From Ardenticatenales bacterium (lineage in GTDB: Bacteria; Chloroflexota; Anaerolineae; Epilineales; Epilineaceae), in the NCBI GenBank assembly GCA_020853525.1, contig JADYYS010000044.1, positions 1-64,000 of the forward strand: 64,000 nucleotides of DNA, in the 5' to 3' direction. The number at the start of each line of letters is the position of its first letter. Position 1 is the stretch's first letter. Under the pieces are notes generated by a model that saw nothing but the letters and a program-made list of their open reading frames with translations, made no database searches and was not told the origin of the DNA. Below are positions 42,377 to 50,926 of the stretch, piece after piece. Position numbers and translations under genes: made by a program.

Positions 42377-45300
42377 CGGCCGGCCGCCCGGCGGTGCCGC
42401 CAGAGCGCCGCCGCCTCGCGTGCGACGGCGATCGGGCCGTAGCGCCTGAGGCCCTCGAGCAGCTTGACGCGCGCCGGCGCATCGGCCGGCCACGGGCGGA
42501 GCGGCACGGGCGGCAGCGGCGCGGCGAGGCGCGCCCAGGCGGCGAGCGGGCGGCGGACGGCAGCATGCCGCTCTCGCCAGCCGGCGGCGCGGCGCAGCTC
42601 GAGGGCGGCGCGGCGGCGCGCGGCCAGGCGGGTGAACGCGAACGGATCAGCCGACGCCGGGTCGTGTGCGCCATCGAGGGCGAAGGTGCGGTGGGCGGGC
42701 AGCGGGAGGTGAGCGATGGACGACGCGGGCCGGACCGGCAGCTGCGACGGCGGCACGCCGGCGACGTCGGCGACGTCGGCGACGTCGGCGAAGTCGGCGA
42801 CGTCGGCGCCCGACCTGTCGATGCTCGCCCCGCCGACGCCAGACCCGCCGACGCCGGCCCCGCCGACGACCACCCTGTCGATGCCCGCCCCGCCGACGAC
42901 CTCGCACGCCAGCTCGACCGCCAGCGCGTCATCGGCGGTGCCGGCCGGTCGATCGTCGGTCCGGGGCAGGTAGGACAGCACTGCCCAGAGCGTGCGGCCG
43001 GCGACGTCGGCCAGGGGGGTGAACGGGAACGCGGTCCAGCCGTCGGGCACGAGGTCGGCGGTGTCGACGTCGGCACGCGCCAGGTCGAACGGGGCGCTCG
43101 GCAGCGCCTTGATGCGCAGAACGACGAGGCCGTCGCAGCGTCGGCCGGGCACGGCGGGGAAGCGGAGTTCGACGCGGCACAGACCGTCGCGGCCGGGCGC
43201 GATCGGCCAGGCCATCTCGCGCACGTCGATGCCCGACGTGCGCACGTCGGCCCGCCCGCCGTCGCCCACTGTCCAGCCGTCGAGGTGGCGGGCGGCGATG
43301 CGCGTCGGGGGTGGGCCGGTGGGCGCCGGCGCGCCGCCCGGTCGATCGGCGCGGTCCTCGGCCGCGTAGCGCGCCACGTGGGCAGCGAACTGGCGCCCGC
43401 TCTCGTCCCAGCTGGCGGCGGCCACTGCGGCGCGGCCGCCGGCGACGAGCCGGTCGCGGAGCGCGGCGTCGTCGATGACGCGGAGGATCGCTGTCGCCAG
43501 GTCCGATACCGTCGGCGCGGCGACGACGCAGTTCTCGCCGTCGCGCTCGAACCAGCGCGTCGATCGGCTGGCCGCGGCGACGACGCACAGGCCGCAGGCC
43601 ATCATCTCCAACGGCACGAGCGACAGGTTCGTGAAGGACATCGCCAGGCCGACGGTGGCGCTGCGGTAGAGATCGGCCAGCGCGGGCGCATCGAGCACGC
43701 CCGCCTGGACGTGAGGGAAGTCGGCCAGCCCGGGCTGCGGTGCGCCGCCGTACAACACCACTTCGACGTCCGGTCGTTCGGCCTGCACGCGCGCCAGCGC
43801 CGCCAAGCCGAGCGCGACGCCCCGGCGCGGCGTCGTGGCGCGGGCGTAGAAGACGACGCGCGGCCGGGCCGGCGGCGGCGCGGCGCCGGGGCGGTAGACG
43901 GCGTGGTCGACACCGAAGTCGACGGCGCGCGCACGGCCGCCGAAGCGCGCCTCGATCAACTCCGCCAGCCATGGCCCGATCGTGATGTGGCCGAGGCCGA
44001 GGCGGTAGGTCCGCGCGGCGGCCGCGTAATCGGCGGAGAGGGACTGGAAGGACGGCTCGTGATCCTGCACGAAGTACAGCCGAGTGCCGATGCCCCGCGC
44101 GCGCGCCACGGCCGCGGCCGTCGTCCAGCCGGTGGCGATCGCGACGTCGGCCGGCGGGAGGTCACCGCCGAGCCGCACGGCGGCGGCGCTCGGCGGAAAG
44201 TTCGCGCGCACGTAGCGCGCGGCGTCGGCCTCGCTCACGTCGCGCATGAGCGGCCCGCGCTCGATGTGGACCGTGACGTCGTGCCCGGCCTCGCACAGGC
44301 CGGCGACCATCCGCATGAGCGTCGTGTGGCCGCCGGAGCCGGGCGGGGGCTCGGGCATGAGGACGCGGATCGTGAGAGGCGCACCGACGTCGCCGTCCGT
44401 CGCTCCGACGGGCGGCTTCGATCGTCCCGCTGTCGCCGTCGCCGCCGCGGCGCGCAGCGTCGCCACCGTCCGTTCGGCCTGCGCGGCCGTCGTGCGGTGC
44501 GCTTGCACCCACGCGGCGGCGGCGCTGCCGAGGGCGGCGCGCCGCCGCGGGTCGGCCGCGAGGCCGTCGATGGCGGCCTCCCAGGCGTCGACATCCTCCG
44601 CGAGAAGGCCGAGCGCCGTCGGCGGACCGGCGACTGCGGCGGCCGTCGAACCCGCCGGGCCGGCGGCATCGCCCTCCCCGCCCTCCGCTTCGTCGACCAG
44701 TGCCTCATCACGCAGTGCCTCGTCACGCAGTGCCTCATCACGCAGTGCCTCATCACGCAGTGCCTCATCACGCAGTGCCTCGTCACCCAGTGCGCCGCCG
44801 AGGGCGCTGGCGAACGCCTGCGTGGCCACGGCGACGGTCGGCACGGCGCAGGCGGCGGCCTCGAGCCATTTCAGCTCGCTCTTGCACTGGCAGAACAGGT
44901 TGTCGACCTCGAGCGGCGCCACGTTCACGTCAAAGGCGGCGATCACCTCGGGCAGTGCGCGCCAGTCGACGGCCGGCACGCGGACGACGCGCTCGCCCAT
45001 CGCCGCCCAGTCGTCGTCGAGCGCCAGCGGGCCGACGACGTGGAACACGACGTCCGGGCGGCGCGCCATCACGCGCAGCAGCGCCGGTCCGCAGGCGGCA
45101 TTGAAGTCGCGGTCGTGCGTCCGCGTCCCACTGGCGTAGCCGACGACGACGGTCGGCCCGTGCATGGCGCGATGGACGGCCGCTGCGCGATGAACATCGC
45201 CGACCCACCGGGCGCCGGCATCGTTCGGCCGGGCGCCGGCATCGTCCGCGCGGCCGCCGGCCGTCCGGATCGAGAGGCCGAGCAACTCGAGGTCGACGGC

Positions 45301-45807
45301 GTTGCGGCGGATGAAGGCCAGCCGTCCGGCGCGCCGGACGCGCGCGGCGAGGGCGGCGGTGGGCACGAGGGCGGCGTCGCAGGCCAGCAGCGTGCGGCGG
45401 TAGCGGCGGACGCCCTGGTGGTACAGCGCCTTCTCGTCCGGCGTGAGCGCCTGGACGCCATGGTGCCAGTGGGTCGATTCGGGCTCGAAGACGAGGTCGT
45501 CGACGTCGAACAGCACGACGCCGCCCGCGTCGCGGGTCCGATCGATGAGCGATTGCACGAGCGGATCCCAAGCCACACGATGCAGGACGACGATCGGCCA
45601 CGCCGGCGAACGGGCGAGGAGCGCGGCGTCGATCCGCGGCGCGACGGTCGCCATCACGCCGGCCAGCTCGAGCTCCTCGGCCAGGTCGTAGGCGCGGTAG
45701 CGGCGCGTGGCGCCGTCGGCACCGCTCACGACGAGAACGGGGCCGATGTCGGGGCGGTACCGCAGGGGCGACGCGGGCGTCGTCGGCATGGCAGCGCCGA
45801 CCGGCAT
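42373..45807 (-). CDS. Giant glycosyltransferase: GT4-like part, WsaF-like GT4 part, C-terminal beta domain
   Basis: An 1144-residue protein. Part 1 (to about 350): VLVVSGADGATRRYRAYDLAEEL, IVVLHRVAWDPLVQSLID, VVLFDVDDLVFEPES, VVGPLALDDDWAAMG, LFCQCKSELKWLEAAACAVPTV, clearly paralogous to the start of its neighbour. A six-copy RDEAL linker follows. Part 2 resembles the WsaF rhamnosyltransferase branch: GGHTTLMRMVAGLCEAGHDV, YFVQDHEPSFQSLSADY, VVFYARATTPRRGVALGL, SFTNLSLVPLEMMACGLCV. Then come the beta domain (GRDGLCRVELRFPAV), a Gly/Val/Ala repeat linker, and RPWPADAPARVKLLEGLRRYGP. ATG 45807 overlaps the FG-GAP gene stop. Donor and acceptor are unknown. Confidence 0.82.
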   Translation of the reverse strand: MPVGAAMPTTPASPLRYRPDIGPVLVVSGADGATRRYRAYDLAEELELAGVMATVAPRIDAALLARSPAWPIVVLHRVAWDPLVQSLIDRTRDAGGVVLFDVDDLVFEPESTHWHHGVQALTPDEKALYHQGVRRYRRTLLACDAALVPTAALAARVRRAGRLAFIRRNAVDLELLGLSIRTAGGRADDAGARPNDAGARWVGDVHRAAAVHRAMHGPTVVVGYASGTRTHDRDFNAACGPALLRVMARRPDVVFHVVGPLALDDDWAAMGERVVRVPAVDWRALPEVIAAFDVNVAPLEVDNLFCQCKSELKWLEAAACAVPTVAVATQAFASALGGALGDEALRDEALRDEALRDEALRDEALRDEALVDEAEGGEGDAAGPAGSTAAAVAGPPTALGLLAEDVDAWEAAIDGLAADPRRRAALGSAAAAWVQAHRTTAAQAERTVATLRAAAATATAGRSKPPVGATDGDVGAPLTIRVLMPEPPPGSGGHTTLMRMVAGLCEAGHDVTVHIERGPLMRDVSEADAARYVRANFPPSAAAVRLGGDLPPADVAIATGWTTAAAVARARGIGTRLYFVQDHEPSFQSLSADYAAAARTYRLGLGHITIGPWLAELIEARFGGRARAVDFGVDHAVYRPGAAPPPARPRVVFYARATTPRRGVALGLAALARVQAERPDVEVVLYGGAPQPGLADFPHVQAGVLDAPALADLYRSATVGLAMSFTNLSLVPLEMMACGLCVVAAASRSTRWFERDGENCVVAAPTVSDLATAILRVIDDAALRDRLVAGGRAAVAAASWDESGRQFAAHVARYAAEDRADRPGGAPAPTGPPPTRIAARHLDGWTVGDGGRADVRTSGIDVREMAWPIAPGRDGLCRVELRFPAVPGRRCDGLVVLRIKALPSAPFDLARADVDTADLVPDGWTAFPFTPLADVAGRTLWAVLSYLPRTDDRPAGTADDALAVELACEVVGGAGIDRVVVGGAGVGGSGVGGASIDRSGADVADFADVADVADVAGVPPSQLPVRPASSIAHLPLPAHRTFALDGAHDPASADPFAFTRLAARRRAALELRRAAGWRERHAAVRRPLAAWARLAAPLPPVPLRPWPADAPARVKLLEGLRRYGPIAVAREAAALWRHRRAAGR
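42761..42805. repeat. Five-copy 9-base in-frame tandem array
   Basis: Unit gcgacgtcg, five copies with one variant base in the fourth, encodes repeated Asp-Val-Ala in the C-terminal linker of the giant glycosyltransferase. A less regular Gly/Val repeat continues to about 42900. Confidence 0.9.
44698..44787. repeat. Six-copy 15-base in-frame tandem array
   Basis: Unit cagtgcctcatcacg with few substitutions, six copies, encodes (Arg-Asp-Glu-Ala-Leu) repeats between the two glycosyltransferase parts. Confidence 0.95.
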
Positions 45808-47594
45808 CACGGTGCCATCGTATGTTCGCCCGGCACGAACGGCACCGGGTCCCGGCCCTGGACGACGTGATACCACCGGCCGGCGGCCACGTCCGCGTAC
45901 GTCGTTTCGGCGCCGCCGGGCCACTGGATGCGGATGTCGGCGGTGGCGGCGGAGGCCAGGCCGAGGAGGACGCGGGCGTCGTTCACCGACAGGAAGCTCG
46001 ACCCGCCGAGGCGCTGGGCGGTGGGCGTGCGATCGCCGGCCGAGGCCGTGATCCGCGCTCCGATGGCGGAGCGGTTGGCGCCGGCGGCCACATCGCCCTC
46101 GAGCCAGAGTCCGAGCCACCGGCCGGCGGCCATCGTCTCGTTGTGTGCGACCTCGAGCGGTCCGCCGTTGTTGCCGACGACGACGTCGAGGCGGCCGTCG
46201 CCGTCGAGATCGCCGGTGGCGAGTCCGCGGCTCCCGAGGGCGGCGGTGAAGGCATCGCCGACGGCGGCCGAGACGTCGCTGAACGTCCCGTCGCCGCGGT
46301 TCTCGAACAGCGTGTTCGTCTGGCCGAAGGCGACGTCGCCCATGAAGCTGCCCATGTTGTCGTACAAGTACCCGTTGGCGATCAGGATGTCGGTGTCGCC
46401 GTCCGCATCCAGGTCGGCGAGGTCGATGCCCCACTTCAGGCGCGCGCGCGCCGCGACGCCGATGCCGACGGCGTCGGACACCTCGCGGAACAGGAGCCGG
46501 CCGGGTCCGATCGGCGGTTCCTGGAGGTAGGTGCTGGCGGACTCGCCCTGGAAGTTGGCGGCGATCAGATCCGGCCGGCCGTCGCCGTCGACGTCGCCGA
46601 GGTCGGTGCCCATGCCGGCCTCCTCGGCGCCGTTGCTGGAGTACGCAACGCCCGCGACGGAGCCGACGTCGGTGAAGCGTCCGGCGCCGTCGTTCAGCCA
46701 GAGTTCGTTGCGGTCGAGGTCGTTTGCGACGTAGACGTCGGTGTCGCCGTCCAGGTCGATGTCGCCGGCGACGAGCGCGAGGCCGCGGGTCGGCACGTCG
46801 GCGGTGATGCCGGCTTCTTCGGATCCGTCGGTGAACGTGCCGTCGCCATTGTTGCGCCAGTAGCGGTCGTGGACGCCCGCGTACATCTCGGGCGTGCAGT
46901 ACACGTGGACCCGGTTGAGGTGGCACTTGATCGCGTTCGCCATCGTGTAGTCGACGTAGCGCGTCACCCAGAGGTCGAGGTCGCCGTCGCCGTCGCCGTC
47001 CAGGAAGGCCGAGCTCATGCTCCAGCGCTTGTCGTCCGTCAGGCCCGCGGCGGCGGTGACGTCCTGGAAGCCCGTGCCGGTGTTGCGCAAGAGGGTGTCG
47101 CCGCCGCCGTAGTTCGACAGAAAGAGGTCGGTCCAACCGTCATTGTTCCAGTCGCCGGCCGCGACGCCCATGCCGTAACCCCGGCTCGGCAGCCCCCAGG
47201 CCGCCGTGGTATCGGTGAAGTGGCCACGGCCGTCGTTCAGGAAGAGACGATTGGCCGCCTCGGGCGCCCGCACGGCCTGCCCGACCGTCCCGCTGTTCGT
47301 CACGACGAGGTCCGGTGCGCCGTCGCGGTTCACGTCGACGAGGGCGACGCCGGAACCCATGAACTCCGGCATGTACTTGTCGGCGGAGTAGGTCGGAACG
47401 TGGCGGTACGCGCCGAGGCCGACCTGCGCTGCGACCTCGCGAAAGCGGAGGGATGTGGTCGACGTGGCGGCTGCGATCGACGGCGGCGCAGGGCTCGCGG
47501 CTTCAGGTGAAGGCGTTGACGCGGGGCGCCGGCATGCGGCCAGCGTGAAGACGAGAGAGGCCGCGATGGCGGCGCGGCGGGCCCTCGCCCTCAC
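45807..47594 (-). CDS. FG-GAP/VCBS and ASPIC-UnbV (CRTAC1-like) lipoprotein
   Basis: A 595-residue exported protein from GTG 47594, overlapping the TPR gene stop (GTGA). A lipobox VFTLAAC puts the acylated cysteine at residue 21. The body holds multiple calcium-binding FG-GAP repeats of the form DxNxDGxxD: LVDVNRDGAPDLVV, AGDWNNDGWTDLFLSN, AGDIDLDGDTDVYVAN, LGDVDGDGRPDLIAAN, TGDLDGDGRLDVVVGN. They form a predicted beta-propeller. The C-terminal ASPIC/UnbV domain follows (IGARITASAGDRTPTAQRLGG to IQWPGGAETTYADV). These proteins act outside the cell, probably in binding. In many genomes they sit beside TPR proteins, as here. Confidence 0.93.
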   Translation of the reverse strand: MRARARRAAIAASLVFTLAACRRPASTPSPEAASPAPPSIAAATSTTSLRFREVAAQVGLGAYRHVPTYSADKYMPEFMGSGVALVDVNRDGAPDLVVTNSGTVGQAVRAPEAANRLFLNDGRGHFTDTTAAWGLPSRGYGMGVAAGDWNNDGWTDLFLSNYGGGDTLLRNTGTGFQDVTAAAGLTDDKRWSMSSAFLDGDGDGDLDLWVTRYVDYTMANAIKCHLNRVHVYCTPEMYAGVHDRYWRNNGDGTFTDGSEEAGITADVPTRGLALVAGDIDLDGDTDVYVANDLDRNELWLNDGAGRFTDVGSVAGVAYSSNGAEEAGMGTDLGDVDGDGRPDLIAANFQGESASTYLQEPPIGPGRLLFREVSDAVGIGVAARARLKWGIDLADLDADGDTDILIANGYLYDNMGSFMGDVAFGQTNTLFENRGDGTFSDVSAAVGDAFTAALGSRGLATGDLDGDGRLDVVVGNNGGPLEVAHNETMAAGRWLGLWLEGDVAAGANRSAIGARITASAGDRTPTAQRLGGSSFLSVNDARVLLGLASAATADIRIQWPGGAETTYADVAAGRWYHVVQGRDPVPFVPGEHTMAP

Positions 47595-50500
47595 GGTGCC
47601 GCCGCCTCGACGCGCGCCGCCTCCGCCTGCGCCGTTGCGGCCAGATCCGCCTCTCCCTGCGCCTGGTAGACCGCCGCCGCGAACTGCCAGATCTCCCGCC
47701 GCGTGGCCGGGTCGGCGCTTTCGACCTCGGGCAGCATGGCATCGATCGTCGTGCGGGCGGTCGCGACATCGCCGGCTTCCCACGCCGCCTTGAGCGCCAC
47801 CGCACGTGCCGACAGGCGCATGAGGCGGGCGTTGTGGTCGTCCTCGCGGTCGTGGATGGCGGCGACCCGATCGTACGCTGCTTGCGCGCCGGCGGCATCG
47901 CCGAGCCCGGCGCGGGCGCGACCGAGGGCGTTGTAGGCCGGGAAGTAGTCGTCGCGCAGGGTCGTGGCCTGTTCGAGGACGGCGATCGCGGCCTCGCTCT
48001 CGCCCTCCTCCAGGTGCAACAGGCCGCGCAGGGTCAGCGCATCCACACGGTCGGCCGTGGCGAGGCCGGCGCCGGCGCGATCGAGGATCGCTGCGGCGGC
48101 GGCGATTTCGCCCAGGCGCGCGAGGGGCAGCGCGGCGGAGTAGGCGGCGGCGGGGTCGGTGGGCGCGGCGTCGGACAGCGGGCGGGCGATCGCCGCCGCG
48201 TCGGACCATCGGCCGAGATTGATGTAGACCTTGGCCAGCGTGGCCTGTTCGGCCGCCGACAGCACCGGTCGGCTGGTCAGGACGGCGGCGAGGCCGGTCC
48301 AGTCGTCCCGCGAGATGAGCGCGGCCCGAAGCACGCCGTCGACCTCGGCCGACGTGGGGTGGGCGCCGTACAGGGCGCGCAGCGTGGCGAGGTGATCGTC
48401 CGTCACGCGCTTGGACGCCAGAGCCGACTGGACCGCCGCGAGCGAGGCGCGTTCGGCCTCGCTCAGCGGGGCGCCGCGCGCGGGGCTGGCCGGCGTCGCG
48501 GCGCCGCCGGCGGCGCCGGTCCCATCGGCCCCGGCACCATCGGCTCCACCGGCCGCATTCGCCGTCGATCCCGATGCGCCGCCCGTCGAAACGGGGCCGG
48601 TGCCGCGGCTGCCGCCCGGCCCGCACCCGGCCAGCGTGCCGCCGACGACGACCGCGGCCGCGACCGCCGCGAGCCACCGCCCGAGCCAGCCCAGCACCTC
48701 GCCGTACCAGTGGCGGCTGTTCTGCGGCTTGAGGATCCAGTGGTTCTCGTCCGGATAGACGACGAGGCGCGCCGGCAGGCCGCGGGCACGGTAGACGTTG
48801 TAGATGGCCAGCCCCTGGTTGTAGGGCACGCGGTAGTCGCGCTGGCCGTGGACGACGAGCATCGGCGTCTGGAAGCCGGCGGCGTGGCGGAGGGGGTTGA
48901 AACGATCGAGGCCGTCGATATCGCCCCAGAGCTCGCCGCCCATCGAGCGCTCGCGGCCCTGGGTGACGTCGGTGGCGAACTGCGTCTGGAAGTCCGACAC
49001 GCCGGCGTGGTTCACGGCGCAGGCGTAGCGATTCGTCTTGCCGCACAGCCAGCTGACGAGGTAGCCGCCGTACGAGCCGCCCGTGATCGCCATCCGGTCC
49101 GGGTCGGCGATGCCCCGTTCCACGAGGAGGTCGGTGGCGGCCTCGATGTCACGGCCGGGCTGATCGCCCCAGGTCCCGAGGATCGACTTGGTGAACGCGT
49201 CGCCGAAGCCCGTGCTGCCGTGGAAGTTCACGAGCGCGACGACGTAGCCCGGCGCCGCGAACGCATGGGCGCACCACCGCCAGTGCCAGCCGTCGCCGAA
49301 CGTGCCGTGCGGGCCGCCATGGATCATGTGCACCAGCGGCCACGGCTTGGCCGGGCGCTCGCCCGGCGCCGGGACGCGCGCGCCGGGCGGGTAGACGACG
49401 AACATCTGGACGGCGTCGCCGTCCGCGCCCGTGAACGTGACGTCCTCGACGTCGCCGAGGGCGATATCGGCCAGGATCACATCGCCGAAGCCGCCGATGC
49501 GGTCGACGTTGCGTGTGCCTCCGCCTGCGTCGTCGCGACCGGCCGCGAACCACGCCGCGCTCGGCGGGGCGGTCAGCGCGGCGTGGGTGCAGAAGACGCG
49601 GCCGCCGGCAGGCTGGGGCGAGGCGAGCGTGCCGTCGCACGCGCGCAGCACCGGCGTCACGCCGCGCGGGTCGGCCGTCGATGCGGCGACCGCGGCGGCG
49701 ATATCGAGCGACCAGACGGCGTTGCGCGGTCCGATTTCGCCGGTGAACCAGAGCGTCGCCGGCGCGTCGGGGTCGAACGTCCACTCTCCGGCCGAGGTGT
49801 CCCAACCTTCGGTGAGGACGGTGTGTGTGCCCGCGGCGCGGTCGAGGGCGACGAGGCGCATGCGGTCGGCGTAGAAGTCGAACTCGACCTGCATGCCGTA
49901 CACCAGCCAGCGGCCGTCGGGCGAGAAGACGGGGCGGTGGGCCTCGTGCTGGTCTGCCGCATCGGCGTGGCCGGCGGCATCGGCGGGGGGCGGCGCGACG
50001 AGGCGCGGCGGGGAGACGCTGTCGGGCGCGGCGGCGGCTGCTGCGGCGGCGGCAAGGTCGTTCGGGACGTCGACGACGAACGCGCCCCACAGCACCCGGT
50101 CGTACGGCGGATCGGAGCGACAGGCGTCGAACGCGATCGCTCCCCCGTCCGGGCTCACGGACACGCCGTTGCCCGGGCCCATCAGGTAGAGCCAGCGGCG
50201 CATCGCGGGCGTGACGTCCGCCAGCTCGCCGCGGTCCACGTCGAGGACGTAGATGTGGTGGACGATCCCGTCCGTCAGCCAGCGGTCCCAGTAGCGGTAG
50301 ACCCGGTCCTCGGTGACGTAGGCCTTGACGGCGTCGTCCTCGCGTGCCTTGTGGCGCCCGGCCGTGCCGGCCAACGACGGCGCATCGGCGTATACCGGGG
50401 CGACGAAGGCGATCCGGCGGCCGTCCGGGAACCAGACCGGCGTGCCGACGCCGAGCGTGAGGTCCGTGCACCGGACGGCCTCGCCGCCGTCGAGCGGCAT

Positions 50501-50926
50501 CACCCAGAGCTGGTCGACCTCGCCGAAGCGGGCCGGGCCGTCGGCGAGGCCGGAGATCGACGACGATGCCGTGCCCGCAGCATCCGGCTTGGCCGCCGCA
50601 TCCGCCTTGGCCTTGCCGCCCTTCCCCGCCGGCGCCCCCGGCTTGCGGACGAAGGCGAGCCGCGCGCCGTCCGGGCTGACGGCCGGCTGGCTCGACGAGA
50701 CGTCGGCGGCGGTGAGTGCGCGCGGGGCGGGAGCGGGGGCCGCGGAAGGGTCGCCGTCGCCGCCCGTTGTCGCCGGCACGCGCCACAACCGCGTCGTGCC
50801 GACGTTCGCCGCGACATCGTACGTCGTGACGGGTACGATGCACCCCGAGCCGTCCGGCAGCGGCGCCGGCGTGCCGACGCGCGGCAGGGACCAGAGGCGG
50901 TCGACGGACATCGGTTCCTTGGGCAT
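47591..50926 (-). CDS. S9 prolyl-oligopeptidase-type hydrolase fused in frame to a TPR lipoprotein
   Basis: An 1111-residue reading frame. Residues 1-500 form a beta-propeller with repeated SPDG motifs (PAVSPDGARLAFV, VSVSPDGGAIAF, PVFSPDGRWLVYG). Residues about 500-752 are an alpha/beta hydrolase with Ser618 (GGSYGG), Asp697 (HGQRDYRVP) and His729 (DENHW). The S9 domain should end at about 752 (EVLGWLGRWL). With no stop it runs into AAVAAAVVVGGTLAGC, a lipoprotein-type signal with its lipobox cysteine at 768. A Gly/Ala linker and TPR-like helical repeats follow (GRWSDAAAIARPLSDAAPTDPAAAYSAALP) to the end. An in-frame GTG at residue 744 (position 48697) could begin a separate 368-residue TPR lipoprotein. 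GAAGGA precedes ATG 50926. Confidence 0.88.
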   Translation of the reverse strand: MPKEPMSVDRLWSLPRVGTPAPLPDGSGCIVPVTTYDVAANVGTTRLWRVPATTGGDGDPSAAPAPAPRALTAADVSSSQPAVSPDGARLAFVRKPGAPAGKGGKAKADAAAKPDAAGTASSSISGLADGPARFGEVDQLWVMPLDGGEAVRCTDLTLGVGTPVWFPDGRRIAFVAPVYADAPSLAGTAGRHKAREDDAVKAYVTEDRVYRYWDRWLTDGIVHHIYVLDVDRGELADVTPAMRRWLYLMGPGNGVSVSPDGGAIAFDACRSDPPYDRVLWGAFVVDVPNDLAAAAAAAAAPDSVSPPRLVAPPPADAAGHADAADQHEAHRPVFSPDGRWLVYGMQVEFDFYADRMRLVALDRAAGTHTVLTEGWDTSAGEWTFDPDAPATLWFTGEIGPRNAVWSLDIAAAVAASTADPRGVTPVLRACDGTLASPQPAGGRVFCTHAALTAPPSAAWFAAGRDDAGGGTRNVDRIGGFGDVILADIALGDVEDVTFTGADGDAVQMFVVYPPGARVPAPGERPAKPWPLVHMIHGGPHGTFGDGWHWRWCAHAFAAPGYVVALVNFHGSTGFGDAFTKSILGTWGDQPGRDIEAATDLLVERGIADPDRMAITGGSYGGYLVSWLCGKTNRYACAVNHAGVSDFQTQFATDVTQGRERSMGGELWGDIDGLDRFNPLRHAAGFQTPMLVVHGQRDYRVPYNQGLAIYNVYRARGLPARLVVYPDENHWILKPQNSRHWYGEVLGWLGRWLAAVAAAVVVGGTLAGCGPGGSRGTGPVSTGGASGSTANAAGGADGAGADGTGAAGGAATPASPARGAPLSEAERASLAAVQSALASKRVTDDHLATLRALYGAHPTSAEVDGVLRAALISRDDWTGLAAVLTSRPVLSAAEQATLAKVYINLGRWSDAAAIARPLSDAAPTDPAAAYSAALPLARLGEIAAAAAILDRAGAGLATADRVDALTLRGLLHLEEGESEAAIAVLEQATTLRDDYFPAYNALGRARAGLGDAAGAQAAYDRVAAIHDREDDHNARLMRLSARAVALKAAWEAGDVATARTTIDAMLPEVESADPATRREIWQFAAAVYQAQGEADLAATAQAEAARVEAAAP

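Follow-up and report, generated by a model that had tools for sequence, protein, structure and literature searches.

A minus-strand reading frame of an Ardenticatenales bacterium (47591-50926, beginning at ATG 50926) encodes an S9 peptidase and continues without interruption, for 1,111 codons in all, through a lipoprotein signal and into a TPR solenoid. The frame lies in contig JADYYS010000044.1, whose positions 1 to 64,000 make up the stretch analysed here (hereafter the window). The observation that the peptidase frame runs into a lipoprotein signal and a TPR part, first made in a sequence-only reading of the window, was confirmed as real and beyond chance: the frame stays open over its whole length, AAVAAAVVVGGTLAGC carries a lipobox and the structure model contains the solenoid. 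Most likely two genes of known types have truly fused here, a rare event confined to this lineage and unusual in its consequence. The explanation that we favour as a whole, that two adjacent genes of an operon were joined in frame in this lineage and now yield one precursor, is probable. Among the evidence set out below, relatives keep the genes separate and the TPR part pairs with an UnbV/ASPIC gene.

Domains of the open frame

To the peptidase half, the Peptidase_S9 profile (PF00326) matched at residues 547-752 with an E-value of 1.7e-51 (175.2 bits against a cut-off of 22.6), and the closest solved chains were 8wt1, 7ep9 and 5yzm. The catalytic residues assigned by position, Ser618 (within GGSYGG), Asp697 and His729, are all invariant in 26 aligned relatives; no signal peptide was found at the N terminus of the peptidase. 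An AlphaFold2 model built with 26 relatives gave high confidence for the peptidase and placed its final helix at residues 734-752, in which W740, E743 and W747 are invariant and R750 is nearly invariant among the aligned relatives. The earlier proposal that the hydrolase fold should end at residue 752 agrees with both the end of the Pfam match and the last modelled helix. The protein resembles S9 family peptidases in its β-propeller and α/β-hydrolase domains, its Ser-Asp-His triad and its domain end at residue 752, but it runs 359 residues further, whereas the S9 relatives compared all stop near that position; ending soon after the last helix is usual in these relatives, though family membership does not formally demand it.

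Past the peptidase, model confidence collapses at residues 755-817 (pLDDT <50), and the remainder was modelled as an all-helical repeat solenoid with helical pairs over residues 823-1109. TPR profile signals at residues 962-1009 fell slightly short of the Pfam thresholds, with 24.8 bits for TPR_8 (cut-off 25.7) and 21.4 bits for TPR_11 (cut-off 26.8). The coordinates of all features are collected in Table 1.

Table 1 Features of the fused frame and the gene that follows it (window coordinates)
Feature	Position	Strand	Basis
S9 part (prolyl oligopeptidase / acylaminoacyl-peptidase type), codons 1-752	48671..50926	(-)	PF00326; catalytic triad; AlphaFold2
Last peptidase helix, codons 734-752, PQNSRHWYGEVLGWLGRWL	48671..48727	(-)	AlphaFold2 helix; family conservation
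GTG codon 744, proposed nested start	48695..48697	(-)	probably a valine codon only
Hydrophobic stretch and lipobox, codons 753-768, AAVAAAVVVGGTLAGC	48623..48670	(-)	hydropathy; G001 counterpart
Cys768 of the lipobox	48625-48623	(-)	
Gly/Ala/Ser/Thr-rich linker, codons 769-822	48461..48622	(-)	sequence; pLDDT <50 at 755-817
TPR solenoid, codons 823-1111	47594..48460	(-)	sub-threshold TPR_8/TPR_11 hits; AlphaFold2 helical pairs; 41% identity to the G001 TPR gene
UnbV/ASPIC FG-GAP lipoprotein gene, start GTG 47594	45807..47594	(-)	directly downstream of the fused frame

The two genes are separate in relatives

Comparison with public genomes revealed that the peptidase stops within 0-16 residues (median 2) of the position equivalent to 752 in 80 of 80 related loci fetched. 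The sequence-only reading had suggested looking among relatives for separate halves with a stop at about residue 752; the stop is present in all of these loci. It had also held that a conserved single long protein in relatives would speak against its view; this form was looked for, and none of the 80 loci is fused. In a genome of the same family (G001), the locus matches a public contig of Anaerolineae bacterium OFTM155. Here a 735-residue peptidase ends in GEVLGWLARWLDAEAVG and a stop codon and is followed, after 4 nt, by a separate gene for a 416-residue TPR lipoprotein with its own signal and lipobox and then by an UnbV/ASPIC gene, which is the gene order of the window. The TPR part of the fused protein is 41% identical to this separate TPR protein. 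Peptidase and TPR rows were aligned separately. Set against G001, the fused locus lacks a stop codon for the peptidase as well as a start and a charged n-region for the TPR gene. In G002, also of the same family, the peptidase ends in GEVLGWLGRWLG and a stop codon one residue after the position of 752, and no TPR gene lies behind it. We infer that the ancestral order was S9 peptidase, TPR lipoprotein, UnbV/ASPIC lipoprotein.

At its downstream end the TPR part shares 4 nt with the UnbV gene, its stop codon overlapping the UnbV start (GTGA, 47591-47594), and a TPR-lipoprotein gene stands directly upstream of an UnbV/ASPIC gene three times in this genome (C42:3513-6247, C74:33696-36478 and window 45807-48625). 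As such pairs recur in C42 and C74, where each TPR paralogue is a lipoprotein of the usual kind with its signal at the N terminus, we assign the TPR part to the UnbV gene, its natural partner. The pairs in C42, C74 and contig C215 of G001 share with the present locus the solenoid, the hydrophobic signal, the lipobox and the UnbV/ASPIC gene directly downstream; they differ in that each TPR gene has its own start codon and charged n-region, both of which are replaced here by the peptidase tail. UnbV/ASPIC matches number 15 in this genome in total.

A bifunctional enzyme of ancient origin, conserved and ending in an ordinary TPR tail, would account for the open frame and for two well-formed halves. 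We rejected it as extremely improbable, since none of the 80 relatives shows the fusion and the two genes stand apart in the sister genome. A search of 396 genomes of the class with the TPR half gave no match at E ≤ 1e-12 beyond its own genome (its two paralogues included) and G001, and these 396 genomes therefore showed no older form of the fusion.

The presence of a stop in every relative could also be read as a sign that a stop codon or a short intergenic stretch was lost here in metagenome assembly; the fusion was found in one genome only, a metagenome-assembled genome of 76 contigs that is the single representative of its species. However, a one-base error would hardly restore two normal genes: the two conserved ends meet in a single frame, with no space between them in which the TPR gene could have its own start and n-region, and a shift into either of the other frames would extend the peptidase by 68 or at least 500 codons. 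No direct repeat suggesting an assembly collapse was found within 250 bases of the junction. We consider such an artefact quite unlikely.

A lipobox-type signal inside the frame

By hydropathy, residues 753-768 mark the top 19-residue segment of the whole protein, and the lipobox cysteine follows their hydrophobic core. This lipobox-type signal sits 752 residues inside the frame and not at its translated N terminus. As a baseline we used 452 kb of the genome, including the window, with 196 predicted genes and 98,150 residues. The same lipobox rule found five N-terminal signals in this set, and the present signal was the only one located far inside a protein. The sole other internal match lay at residue 99 of a 1,122-residue frame (L142, 9379-12747, minus strand), whose start codon was probably called too early.

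AAVAAAVVVGGTLAGC has its counterpart in VFAAAVLVPVVLAFGLLGC, the signal encoded by the separate TPR gene of G001. Its hydrophobic core and lipobox have been retained despite an identity of only about 41% between the fused and the G001 TPR proteins, a pattern that points either to continued use of the signal or to a recent fusion. Upstream, the last peptidase helix, itself conserved, passes straight into the hydrophobic core, and its tail, WLGRWL, happens to supply the charged n-region. In the peptidase family Trp747 does not vary and Arg750 hardly varies; the charge of this n-region is inherited from the peptidase and is not newly evolved.

Codon 744 as a possible nested start

The sequence-only reading had left open whether the locus encodes one protein or two nested genes, and had named GTG 48697 as the start of the second. 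With a nested start there, the TPR lipoprotein would be translated separately (MLGWLGRWLAAVAAAVVVGGTLAGC) besides the long product, and the last nine peptidase codons would double as the n-region of its signal. The GTG is in frame and at a suitable distance, one arginine precedes the hydrophobic core and the lipobox is good; moreover, the TPR paralogues carry their lipoprotein signals at the N terminus in the ordinary way, which leads one to expect that this protein, too, must be exported.

The start site itself argues against this arrangement. The anti-Shine-Dalgarno (SD) duplex at codon 744 reaches -1.8 kcal/mol, compared with medians of -2.5 for internal GTG codons and -5.3 for ATG starts, and 67% of internal GTG codons have stronger SD pairing. 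Its 60-base context folds at -23.7 kcal/mol, typical of internal codons (median -23.2) and more closed than that of starts (median -17.1), 85% of ATG starts being in a more open context. The peptidase start, ATG 50926, has a good SD (-5.8) in an open context (-11.6). Furthermore, 36% of valine codons in this genome are GTG, the same valine is encoded by GTC in the sister genomes G001 and G002, the probability that chance alone places a start-like codon in the 25-codon stretch where one would be needed is 73%, and no stop lies nearby to couple re-initiation. Given the weak SD, the structured context, GTC in the sisters and the 73% chance, we found no positive sequence support for a nested start: codon 744 is probably an ordinary valine codon, a nested gene is unlikely, and weak internal initiation may occur at this site. 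The proposed TPR start was accordingly not borne out, and of the two arrangements first put forward the single fused frame is favoured. GTG 700 (48829) was considered as an alternative start and dropped, having an SD of -1.1 and an n-region that would exceed 50 residues.

Predicted fate of the fused product

In the favoured reading of an in-frame fusion, ribosomes would start at ATG 50926 and produce a single 1,111-residue precursor whose peptidase would fold in the cytoplasm. Residues 753-768 would then act as an internal signal-anchor in the N-in/C-out orientation, with the positive R738 and R750 staying inside, and the TPR domain would be exported across the membrane. Both Lgt and LspA are encoded in this genome. 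If they accept the signal, a cut before Cys768 would yield two products, a peptidase with a membrane tail and a TPR protein held by a lipid anchor; if they do not, the two halves would remain joined as one bitopic protein. The more specific proposal, a precursor split at its internal lipobox by way of Lgt and LspA into a membrane-tailed cytoplasmic peptidase and an outside, lipid-anchored TPR protein, with the peptidase helix serving as n-region, is tentative. Counting against the fusion reading, a signal that is never used would leave the TPR part stranded in the cytoplasm. The earlier statement that such a signal would be useless inside an intact enzyme was too strong, as internal signals can insert as anchors or be cleaved.

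A signal that follows a folded domain of 750 residues could plausibly insert into the membrane. In Bradyrhizobium, fbcH encodes cytochrome b and cytochrome c1 as one gene whose product is cut at an internal signal. The present locus is alike in that one frame holds the export signal of a second protein inside it, but fbcH combines an integral membrane protein with a type I signal, whereas here a soluble enzyme is joined to a lipobox (type II) signal whose processing is predicted. A literature search on internal signal peptides, fbcH and stop-loss fusions found nothing directly usable.

If the fusion is real, it shows how the tail of a cytoplasmic enzyme can become part of an export signal once the boundary between neighbouring genes is lost, so that a cytosolic protein is tied to an extracytoplasmic one in a one-to-one ratio. 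The locus would then be a test of whether lipoprotein processing tolerates a 750-residue folded domain ahead of the signal. Automated annotation would label the frame a plain S9 peptidase and overlook the lipoprotein.

Neighbouring genes

Downstream of the fused frame, the UnbV stop overlaps the ATG of the next, glycosyltransferase-like gene as TGATG (window 45805-45809), and the genes around this site are packed very tightly. The glycosyltransferase-like frame, on the minus strand, contains a 15-bp tandem array (window 44698-44793; 6.4 copies, 95% matches) that encodes LRDEA units.
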